From Tubulanus polymorphus (Eukaryota > Nemertea > Palaeonemertea > Tubulaniformes > Tubulanidae), in NCBI RefSeq assembly GCF_964204645.1, contig NC_134030.1, forward strand, positions 20,465,110 through 20,529,109: a stretch of 64,000 nt of DNA. The letters run 5' to 3'. The notes under the pieces were generated by a model. That model was not told the DNA's origin. It worked only from the letters and a program-made list of their open reading frames with translations, and did not search any database. Each line of letters opens with the position of its first letter. The stretch's first letter is position 1. Positions 17,531-52,531 of the stretch are shown here, piece by piece. The translations under genes and the position numbers were made by a program.

Positions 17531-17945
17531 ATGCAATCGACCGTCCGGTGAAGGTCATGTGGATACTCCAACACCACAGCAACAGGTTGATGATACAACA
17601 TGCGAGATGTTAAGTATCTACGAAGAGCTTGATGATGACAGTGATTCCGATAATGTTTCAAATCCAGTCAGAAATATTAAAACTGGATTATTACATAACA
17701 TACCAATTCACAAGGACATCGAAGCCGGGGCAGATACAACTGCATATATGGATATGGAAGCCGCGAAGGGCATAAATACAACTCCTTATATGGATATGGA
17801 AGCCGCGAAGGGCATAGATACAACTCCTTACATGGATATGGAAGCCGTGAAGGGCATAGATACAACTCCTTACATGAATATGGAAGCCGCGAAGGGTATA
17901 GATACAACTCCTTACATTGATATGGAAGCCGAGAAGAAAGAATAA
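17531..17945 (+). CDS. Gene A exon 5: cytoplasmic tail with YEEL and five YxxM repeats
   Basis: TTTCAG then A|TGC completes MRR-C-NRPSGEGHVDTPT. Motifs in order: SIYEEL (fits the ITIM consensus S/I/V/L-x-Y-x-x-L), an acidic stretch DDDSDSDNV, then a 14-residue repeat GIDTTPYMDMEAAK in five copies bearing YMDM three times, YMNM once and YIDM once, ending EAEKKE and TAA at 17943-17945. YxxM is the PI3K p85 SH2 consensus, and YMNM also binds Grb2 in CD28; use of these partners here is inferred. The stop is supplied at the edge of a LINE insertion. Confidence 0.85.
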
Positions 17946-18253
17946 CTGTAAGAGTAAAACAAGAATCAAAAAACAGAATCATAACCAAATTATACTGCCC
18001 ACTCTCCTCCTCTATTCAAAAAGTTAAACATTCTCAAAATAAACATTCTCAAAATAGACATTCTCATATAAAAACCACCCTATTCATCCATCAAATTCTA
18101 CTATCATTACCACATTATGTTTAAAAACATGTTCGCCATTGAAAACCACTATCGAAACATACAAAAACATTCTCAACATGATCACACACATTGTCTACCT
18201 GTAAACCATTATTACGTTATGCTTTTCTTTGAAATAAATTGAAATTGAAATTG
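17946..18253 (+). mobile_element. 5'-truncated LINE 3' end inserted in the gene A tail exon
   Basis: After the stop codon the sequence matches the 3' part of the larger LINE fragment behind gene B (52532-53054) and ends in the tail GAAATAAATTGAAATTGAAA. Exon-like sequence resumes after it. AAAGA on both sides may be the target duplication. Presence behind both A and B dates the insertion before the gene duplication. Confidence 0.7.
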
Positions 18254-51600: not shown

Positions 51601-52531
51601 CGTTACTATAGTCGACTGGAAAGATTCCAGACTAAGGATGAGAGCTAGCTATTTATCCAGAGCACCCATCCAGAACTATTATTGTTCTAATTTGCAATCG
51701 TATAAAAATCATGGCCTAAATTATTTCAAGAACTACCCTGCATTACGGACGATATCAAGATCTAGGTTTCATACTTATAAAATAGTTAATTTACGCATTT
51801 GGACATGTTGAATTATATATAGCATGACATATTTGTATCATCCGAAATATGATCTCATTTCACTTTTTCGATCGAAGCTCCTTGAAATTGCTTGTTATTC
51901 TATCCGAGAATGAATTTCCCATTTCAGATGCAATCGACCGTCCGGTGAAGGTCATGTGGATACTTCAACACCACAGCAACAAGTTGATGACACAGCAAAC
52001 GATATGTTAAGTATCTACGAAGAGCTTGATGACGACAGTGATTCCGATAATGTTTCAAATCCAGTTAGAAATATAGAAACTGGATTACTACATAACATGC
52101 CAATTCACAAGGACATCGAAGCCGGGGCAGATACAACTGCATATATGGATATGGAAGCCGGGAAGGGCAAAGATACAACTCCTTACATGGATATGGAAGC
52201 CGGGAAGGGCAAAGATACAACTCCGTACATGGATATGGGAGCCGGGATAGAAGAGGACACATACATGAGCACTGAAGGCGCGATACGCGATGATACAACC
52301 CCTGTCCCTAGCGCTGAGGGAGACAAAGATGCAGATCAATACATGAATCCTGAAGCTTTGGAGACGACGTATCTTCAGTTGACGGAAGATACCGATGAAC
52401 CTGTGGAAGATGATGTTGAACTTTATTCTTATGCTACTGTTGAATACAAAGCTCCTTACATGAATATGGAAGCCGCGAAGGGCATAGATACAACTCCTTA
52501 CATTGATATGGAAGCCGAGAAGAAAGAATAA
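45511..52531 (+). CDS. Gene B: single-Ig transmembrane receptor with YxxM/ITIM-like tail (intact)
   Basis: Exons 45511-45604, 45685-46023, 49464-49489, 49789-50042 and 51928-52531; phases 1, 1, 0, 2; 438 residues with no interruption. Layout: signal peptide, V-like Ig, 9-residue linker, Thr/Asp stalk, membrane helix with Glu near its inner end, 201-residue tyrosine-rich tail. It is the functional-looking paralogue of A and shares its flanks and intron repeats. The tail has five YxxM, plus YEEL, YLQL and YATV, which points to phosphotyrosine signalling through PI3K, Grb2-type and SHP-type SH2 proteins. Those partners are inferred from motifs. I do not recognise a named family. Confidence 0.85.
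45685..46023 (+). CDS. Gene B exon 2: V-like Ig domain
   Basis: 339 bases, phase 1-1. QRVDYFCRIRAGKSDTT (first Cys), [43 protein letters not shown] (second Cys, with an NGT sequon). One disulfide-closed Ig fold is expected. 113 residues, normal for a V-type domain. Confidence 0.9.
46024..49463 (+). other. Gene B intron 2 (3.4 kb)
   Basis: Eleven times longer than the matching intron of gene A (314 bases). Apart from the minisatellite at 47810 I see no element or additional exon that explains the growth. Confidence 0.7.
47810..48035. repeat. 26-bp minisatellite, about 8 copies
   Basis: Unit GATGCTGCGATTGTGAGGGT plus GATATA with alternating variants (GATGATGTG), suggesting a higher-order two- or three-unit repeat. 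Confidence 0.95.
49464..49489 (+). CDS. Gene B exon 3: 26-base linker microexon
   Basis: Between TTTCAG and gtgagt, codes DHSTLNPSL. Length and phase change are identical to gene A. Confidence 0.8.
49500..49700. repeat. Intronic tandem repeat shared with gene A
   Basis: About five diverged units of CACAACTGTGGAACTGGATC type, fewer than the roughly eight in gene A. Confidence 0.8.
49789..50042 (+). CDS. Gene B exon 4: stalk and transmembrane helix
   Basis: Enters in phase 0 (SDYINQTTLGPSNRVAPDQ), has about eight TTTDQ/TTADQ-type stalk repeats, then WTNVILYITSGVTGCILIII and MAEIIMRR, phase 2 before gtatga. 48 bases shorter than in gene A, through fewer stalk repeats. Confidence 0.9.
50170..50340. 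repeat. 48-bp inverted repeat around a segment flipped relative to gene A
   Basis: 50170-50217 and 50293-50340 are reverse complements (AAAGCGTCTTCGAAAACTTA). The interior (CTGGCCTCCAGTCGGCCATC ...) occurs in gene A intron 4 at about 16665-16770 in the opposite orientation, while the flanks are collinear. This suggests an inversion by recombination between the arms. Confidence 0.75.
50341..51927 (+). other. Gene B intron 4, remainder
   Basis: Collinear in places with gene A intron 4 (around 50360-50640 and 51590-51927). About 900 bases at 50650-51590 have no clear counterpart in A and no recognisable feature, apart from a 20-base pair (TTGGAGTAATCATTTGACAA and its complement) at about 51515-51560. 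Confidence 0.6.
51928..52531 (+). CDS. Gene B exon 5: 201-residue signalling tail
   Basis: Opens CNRPSGEGHVDTSTP, then SIYEEL (ITIM-like), an acidic block, three repeats with YMDM, a unique segment with TYMSTEG, QYMNPEA, TTYLQLTED and LYSYATVEYKAP, and finally YMNM and YIDM repeats ending EAEKKE. The outer repeats match gene A closely while the inner segment is absent from A, so the array has expanded or contracted between paralogues. YMNP also fits the Grb2 site YxN. Confidence 0.88.

Follow-up and report, generated by a model that had tools for sequence, protein, structure and literature searches.

Can a receptor multiply its docking sites for phosphoinositide 3-kinase (PI3K) by repeating a short piece of its own coding sequence? 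The question is raised by two genes, here called A and B, which lie in a 64,000-nucleotide stretch of an animal genome (contig C6, 20465110-20529109; hereafter the window, whose own numbering is used wherever no contig is given). The genome comprises 267.8 Mb in 77 contigs. The answer suggested by the sequence is that A and B belong to an expanded family of immunoglobulin (Ig) receptors, the cytoplasmic tails of which act as scalable PI3K scaffolds. A probability of about 0.7 is attached to this reading, in which we infer that the receptors are expressed, phosphorylated and bound by PI3K, as well as their ligand and biological role.

Genes A and B

The five exons of gene B, with phases 1, 1, 0 and 2, AG/GT borders and introns of up to 3.4 kb, can be spliced from the sequence into one open frame of 438 residues and a stop codon. 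The protein so predicted runs from a hydrophobic leader through an Ig domain with two cysteines, a linker, a Thr/Asp-rich stalk, a membrane helix and an RR anchor to the tail, with leader and helix called by hydropathy and the gene model drawn from sequence only. This agrees with an earlier note on the same DNA, which had proposed a type I Ig receptor architecture with a membrane helix and concordant splice phases, and B is predicted to encode a type I membrane receptor with one Ig domain. The features of gene B are listed below (TRF, Tandem Repeats Finder).

45511..45604, + strand: exon 1, with the start codon and a hydrophobic leader that is read as a signal peptide (MLSNWSVLVCIVLLQLGNVHNA...), ending in phase 1
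45685..46023, + strand: exon 2, Ig C2-like domain, in phase 1 at both ends (AG/GT borders, open frame)
49464..49489, + strand: exon 3, 26-nt linker exon (DHSTLNPSL) joining phases 1 and 0 (AG/GT borders)
49789..50042, + strand: exon 4, coding for a stalk rich in Thr and Asp (15-bp coding repeat, TRF) and for the membrane helix VILYITSGVTGCILIIIMAEIIMRR (hydropathy maximum 2.36)
51928..52531, + strand: exon 5, cytoplasmic tail and stop codon (frame and motif reading)
52129..52247, + strand: 42-bp coding repeat array, first part (TRF, 2.8 copies, 93% matches)

The corresponding features of gene A are as follows.

13182..13275, + strand: exon 1, signal-peptide exon
14613..14950, + strand: exon 2, Ig exon, shifted by one base against the register of its homologues
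15265..15290, + strand: exon 3, 26-nt linker exon
15716..16017, + strand: exon 4, stalk and membrane helix
17531..17945, + strand: exon 5, cytoplasmic tail with YEEL, then YMDM three times, YMNM and YIDM
17732..17936, + strand: 42-bp coding repeat array (TRF, 4.9 copies, 92% matches)

Most of the YxxM motifs of both tails are carried by a repeat unit of 14 residues, encoded by 42 bp. The frames, coordinates and motifs that had been claimed for the two tail exons were recovered, including five YxxM per tail (YMDM three times, YMNM and YIDM in both), and TRF independently returned the 42-bp period. The claimed tandem 14-residue repeat is indeed a coding minisatellite in both genes, but in B the array is not continuous, consisting of three units and then two more, separated by about 70 residues that contain other tyrosines. 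The full series of tyrosine motifs in the B tail is YEEL, YMDM three times, YMST, YMNP, YLQL, YATV, YMNM and YIDM. When the residues of each tail were shuffled 10,000 times, five or more YxxM were never reached for A and were reached three times for B. Upstream of the YxxM motifs, both tails carry SIYEEL, which fits a loose immunoreceptor tyrosine-based inhibitory motif. The immunoreceptor tyrosine-based activation motif (ITAM) is defined as YxxL/I-x(6-12)-YxxL/I, and this spacing is absent from the tyrosines of the A and B tails. The stalk, too, is built of a coding repeat, a 15-bp minisatellite (TTDRx; 15772-15941 and 49838-49953), and differs in length between A and B.

The earlier note had spoken of each gene as a receptor, and this holds for B, which is intact, but not for A. 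The Ig exon of A measures 338 nt against 339 nt in B, and the spliced frame of A runs into a stop inside this exon. Gene A is therefore probably a pseudogene, though it may instead be a broken allele or reflect an error in the assembly.

The receptor family in the genome

In a search of the genome with the tail of B, at least 82 matches were obtained (match counts here are lower bounds), and manual grouping of these gave 40 tail loci, of which 30 are on C6 (17.5-22.8 Mb) and eight on C9, with a single locus on each of C11 and C19. With the Ig exon of B as the query, at least 66 matches were obtained. A same-strand Ig exon is found within 7 kb upstream at 28 of the 40 tail loci, at a spacing of 1.9-5.9 kb. 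By this census the receptors form a multigene and largely tandem-duplicated family of which gene B is an intact member.

The number of YxxM motifs, counted in the best open frame of each of the 40 tail loci, ranges from 1 to 19 and is at least three at 24 loci. The highest counts are 19 at C6:22.814 Mb, 12 at 22.381 Mb and 10 at 22.785 Mb (in a 682-residue frame), followed by 8 at C9:0.297 Mb, 7 on C19 and 6 at 19.029 Mb; A, B and a copy at 20.433 Mb have five. The genes with 19 and 10 motifs show the same order as B, namely leader, Ig exon, membrane exon and tail. The 26-nt linker exon was not found in these two genes, which were compared with B by exon order. Between C6:21752687 and 22092491 there are ten tandem units, approximately 25-43 kb apart, with near-identical three-YxxM tails and an Ig exon upstream of each, and a second Ig copy lies on the same strand 4.9-7.1 kb downstream of each of the ten tails. 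Within eight of these ten genes the dN/dS ratio (nonsynonymous to synonymous substitution rates) of the tail is 0.34.

Selection on the repeat unit

A set of 185 repeat units was taken at no fewer than 8 of 14 identities to the consensus, a filter that favours conserved motifs. Tyrosine is retained in 167 of them (otherwise F in nine, H in eight and G in one), and is encoded by TAT in 89 and by TAC in 78 of those retaining it. The +1 residue is M, I or V in 181 units and the +2 residue is D in 141 and N in 34, while at +3 there is M in 165, V in nine, I in five, T in three, K in two and P in one, with L and F absent. For the PYxxM core of the 19-unit array, the proportion of nonsynonymous differences (pN) is 0.008 and that of synonymous differences (pS) 0.179, compared with a pN of 0.093 in the linker. 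Between arrays, the pN of the +3 methionine is 0.048, the lowest of the 14 positions apart from the tyrosine. Across whole units, in arrays of at least five units, pN/pS varies from 0.23 to 1.23.

Selection was also assessed on eight regular arrays with the 14-residue period (A, L047, L048, L014, L049, L054, L055 and L033), with no identity filter, by comparing distinct changes with 5000 random placements. L046, with a 32-residue higher-order unit and decayed motifs, the interrupted array of B, L051 and shorter arrays stood outside this test. The reading frame is intact across 5 to 19 units in the tested arrays. Nonsynonymous changes at the tyrosine and methionine together numbered seven against 19.0 expected (P=0.0002), and those at the +3 methionine four against 11.4 (P=0.005). 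Synonymous changes at the tyrosine numbered six against 1.8 expected, and outside YxxM there were 84 nonsynonymous changes against 80.9. Since changes at Y and M fall below expectation and the positions outside them change at about the random rate, selection is holding the Y and the +3 M of the motif, the two residues by which a p85 site is defined, and the spacer and linker drift.

Along the 682 residues of the L046 tail itself (L046:954-3002, C6:22.785 Mb), which is built on the 32-residue higher-order repeat, YxxM and the variants PFMNM and YMNV take turns; the pattern looks as if sites were being switched off.

Proposed signalling mechanism

The SH2 domains of p85 prefer pY-[M/V/I/E]-x-M, a preference that the +1 and +3 residues of the repeat fit. 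Moreover, pieces of the iSH2 region of p85 are present in the genome at C2:27.96 Mb, and the p85-binding domain of p110 has three matches on C7. Recruitment of PI3K is proposed because the motif fits and parts of the enzyme are present in the genome. Outside the cell, the receptor would display one Ig C2-like domain on a Thr-rich stalk. Binding of a ligand or partner, or clustering, would lead tyrosine kinases to phosphorylate the tail repeats, and the repeated pY-[M/I/V]-[D/N]-M sites would then recruit class IA PI3K via the two SH2 domains of p85. The remaining tyrosines, namely those of YEEL or YEDP close to the membrane together with those of YMNP, YLQL and YATV, may bind Grb2-type adaptors, phosphatases or other SH2 proteins. 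Unequal exchange or slippage of the 42-bp repeat would alter the number of sites, so that array length could tune output. With the motif placed on a coding repeat of this length, PI3K recruitment could evolve stepwise between paralogues, over a range of 1 to 19 sites.

Alternative explanations

The motif could have a purpose in receptor turnover rather than in PI3K signalling, since YxxM formally matches YxxPhi (Phi being L, I, M, F or V), the endocytic sorting signal for adaptors of the AP-2 type, and receptors of this kind are often internalised. Such a signal alone would accept L, I, F or V at +3, where the 185 units have M in 165 and L or F in none, and the shortfall of changes at this methionine in the tested arrays (four against 11.4, P=0.005) points the same way; sorting is accordingly regarded as an unlikely function for the repeats. 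The same methionine bears on the proposal that the tails are mainly platforms for Grb2-type adaptors, or mixed platforms for phosphatases and adaptors, with PI3K secondary. N at +2 in 34 units, the YMNP, YLQL and YATV of the B tail and the YMNV units that L046 retains without a +3 M would all suit it, but D at +2 in 141 units is a misfit to YxN and the +3 M is the least changed position between arrays bar the tyrosine, which makes a predominantly Grb2-type tail improbable.

It could also be argued that the array is a neutral coding minisatellite, in which the motif multiplies as a by-product of slippage or unequal exchange. The stalk exon of the same genes has a coding repeat too, array length is highly variable, linker changes occur at near the random rate and YxxM has been lost from many units of L046. 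A neutral array is nevertheless difficult to reconcile with the deficit of nonsynonymous changes at Y and M (seven against 19.0, P=0.0002) set beside the 84 against 80.9 outside the motif, and with a frame maintained over 5 to 19 units in eight arrays; we consider it improbable to a similar degree. Very much less probable is that tail and Ig exons are separate genes and the joined receptor an artefact of reading exon by exon. Introns of up to 3.4 kb in B, and the 12 tails that have no nearby Ig exon, could be cited in its favour, but order and strand agree at 28 of the 40 tail loci, at 1.9-5.9 kb, and the phases agree through the five exons of B in a single open frame.

Against the preferred reading, that of a receptor family with tails serving as scalable PI3K scaffolds, several observations must be set. 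At 12 of the 40 tails there is no Ig exon within 7 kb upstream; in one of these an Ig exon lies 17.7 kb away in that direction, and the remaining 11 lack one out to 20 kb, for which divergence, loss of the Ig exon or fragmentation of the loci may be the cause. Arrays are not universal, as 16 of the 40 loci have only one or two YxxM in the best frame, including six of the eight C9 loci and six C6 copies (L006-L010 and L012), and stops fall within the matched stretch in seven C6 copies (L006-L010, L012 and L016). The set of 185 units is biased towards conservation by its identity filter, and the eight arrays of the selection test were chosen by the analyst. Whole-unit pN/pS is not low in some short arrays (1.23 in L014 and 0.85 in L033), and in L046 the best frame has ten YxxM over 25 counted units, many of which read PFMNM or YMNV. 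In addition, the Ig exon gave no indication of diversifying selection in the tandem group at C6:21.75-22.09 Mb, where its dN/dS is 0.42 in eight of the ten genes.

Class of the Ig domain

The Ig domain had been described in the earlier note as V-like, a description that the sequence does not support. Among Pfam hits at E<=5 for nine members, there was no match to the V-set model. The third Ig domain of a four-Ig gene at C6:20.57 Mb is a homologue that shares 47% identity with the B domain, and it passes the Pfam C2-set_2 cut-off (22.1 against 21). Because of this homologue the domain of the receptors is called C2-like; judged from its sequence, it looks C2-like and not V-like. The other eight of the nine members, those of this type in the window included, gave no Ig hit in Pfam at E<=5. 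Two invariant cysteines are present in all nine aligned members. Sequence and profile searches of the PDB with the C2-like domain returned nothing significant, and an hhalign comparison with the IgPf exons gave an E value of 0.019 but a probability of 2.4%. Profile comparison of the C2-like exon with the CDPP-type Ig-like exon of the neighbouring genes found no relation.

Neighbouring Ig genes and other local features

Two further Ig genes lie in the window on the opposite strand to A and B, and each is taken to comprise two Ig exons, joined by strand and order only.

28327..28659, - strand: Ig C2-like exon, a paralogue, taken to belong to a convergent two-Ig gene with no YxxM tail
20349..20519, - strand: second Ig-like exon (CDPP type) of the same two-Ig gene, 7.8 kb away, linked to 28327..28659 by strand and order only
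55900..56232, - strand: Ig C2-like exon, likewise a paralogue, in a second convergent two-Ig gene
54779..54931, - strand: second Ig-like exon (CDPP type) of the second two-Ig gene, with a frame ending GGAFGGLFVFLLYN downstream

Across a 184-kb region around the window, each of the four YxxM genes stands tail-to-tail with a two-Ig gene; these pairs lie at C6:20428659-20461362 and at window 13182-56232. The two-Ig neighbours have the same C2-like domain and a CDPP-type Ig-like exon, and no YxxM tail was found for them in this region. Homologues of B exon 1 occur at three other sites there. At 20.433 Mb, strand and order are the only link between the leader and Ig exon and a YxxM tail 17.7 kb away. 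Three of the four two-Ig genes are followed by a readable shared stretch, VNVAGG(A/V)FGGL(F/I)VFLLY, with a stop within three residues in two of them and a frame that continues in the third; the fourth (window 19.3-20.5 kb) has a partial match only. As a guess, this stretch could be a lipid-anchor signal.

From its layout, each YxxM gene with its two-Ig neighbour resembles a receptor/partner pairing, and we infer an immune or self/non-self (allorecognition) role for the receptors. A fuller version is offered tentatively and is rather doubtful. In it, dozens of Ig receptors of a self/non-self or immune system would have one type of outer domain in common, signalling strength would be encoded in the repeat number, with the coding minisatellite fixing the PI3K sites of each receptor, and the YxxM-less neighbour could be a ligand, a decoy or an anchored partner.

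Larger Ig genes, made up of Pfam-ig, CTCK-type, (in part) C2-like and CDPP-type exons, are found at 29835-33853 (+ strand) and at C6:20570337-20573601 (- strand), and in the gene at 20.57 Mb a membrane-helix-like frame without YxxM comes after the Ig exons. Open frames that by eye resemble retroelement reverse transcriptases lie between the Ig genes at 957-3893 and 22818-25466. A COX1 query found nothing in the assembly. A homeodomain query gave 38 matches in the genome, ten of which form one cluster at C6:5318228-5634753. This Hox-type cluster, on the contig that also holds most of the receptor loci, has ten ordered homeoboxes on one strand, one of them posterior-like by reading. Seven of the ten were inspected, and three read like what we take to be Lox5, Lox4 and Lox2 (KLNGP, Ubd-A-like tails). 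These Hox-type readings would place the animal in Lophotrochozoa (molluscs, annelids and kin).

Relation to known receptors and significance

Receptors with one or few PI3K sites are textbook material. CD28 has a single such motif, a single V-set Ig domain and an extra ectodomain cysteine through which it forms a disulfide-linked dimer. With the CD28 family (CD28, ICOS), the receptors described here share a type I topology, one Ig domain and the YxxM/YMNM motif in the cytoplasmic tail, and differ in having up to 19 motifs on a tandem repeat, a C2-like Ig domain, no stalk cysteine in B, and long tails. After the leader, the B ectodomain has only two cysteines, both in the Ig domain, and no extra cysteine for a disulfide dimer. 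The term CD28-like, used in the earlier note, is thus apt for the YMNM/YxxM motif but not for the class of the Ig domain or the ectodomain cysteines. Many scattered YxxM on one chain are found in the PI3K scaffolds IRS/Gab and HER3. These resemble the present tails in having multiple YxxM per chain, but are adaptors or an EGFR-family receptor, with sites that are not on a minisatellite, and are not multigene Ig receptors. In bacterial effectors such as CagA, EPIYA phosphotyrosine repeats that dock SH2 domains stand in tandem and vary in number; they likewise multiply an SH2-docking tyrosine by repetition, but in a secreted bacterial protein with another motif and partner.

The YMNM/YxxM of the CD28 tail is read as a PI3K and Grb2/GADS site (PMC11599192). 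Among invertebrates, Hydractinia Alr is also a clustered Ig receptor family, of 41 members, but is cnidarian with V-set and I-set domains, according to a review in the main text of which the string 'YxxM' does not occur (PMC11999971). The same review describes oyster CgIgIT2, a lophotrochozoan Ig membrane receptor that likewise has a tyrosine motif, but with five Ig domains and a classic ITAM (PMC11999971). Ig receptors with YxxM, multi-YxxM scaffolds and invertebrate Ig receptor families are thus already known. Among the open-access matches listed, which did not extend to subscription papers and preprints, neither titles nor the first lines of abstracts pointed to a tandem YxxM array in an invertebrate or multigene Ig family. 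Such an array is apparently undescribed, as the earlier note had supposed, the literature negative being weak evidence of absence.

The family would represent a large and apparently undescribed group of Ig receptors in Lophotrochozoa, in which CD28-type output probably arose independently of vertebrate costimulation. Its members would constitute a natural dose series of 1 to 19 sites, through which the number of docking sites may be related to signalling output.
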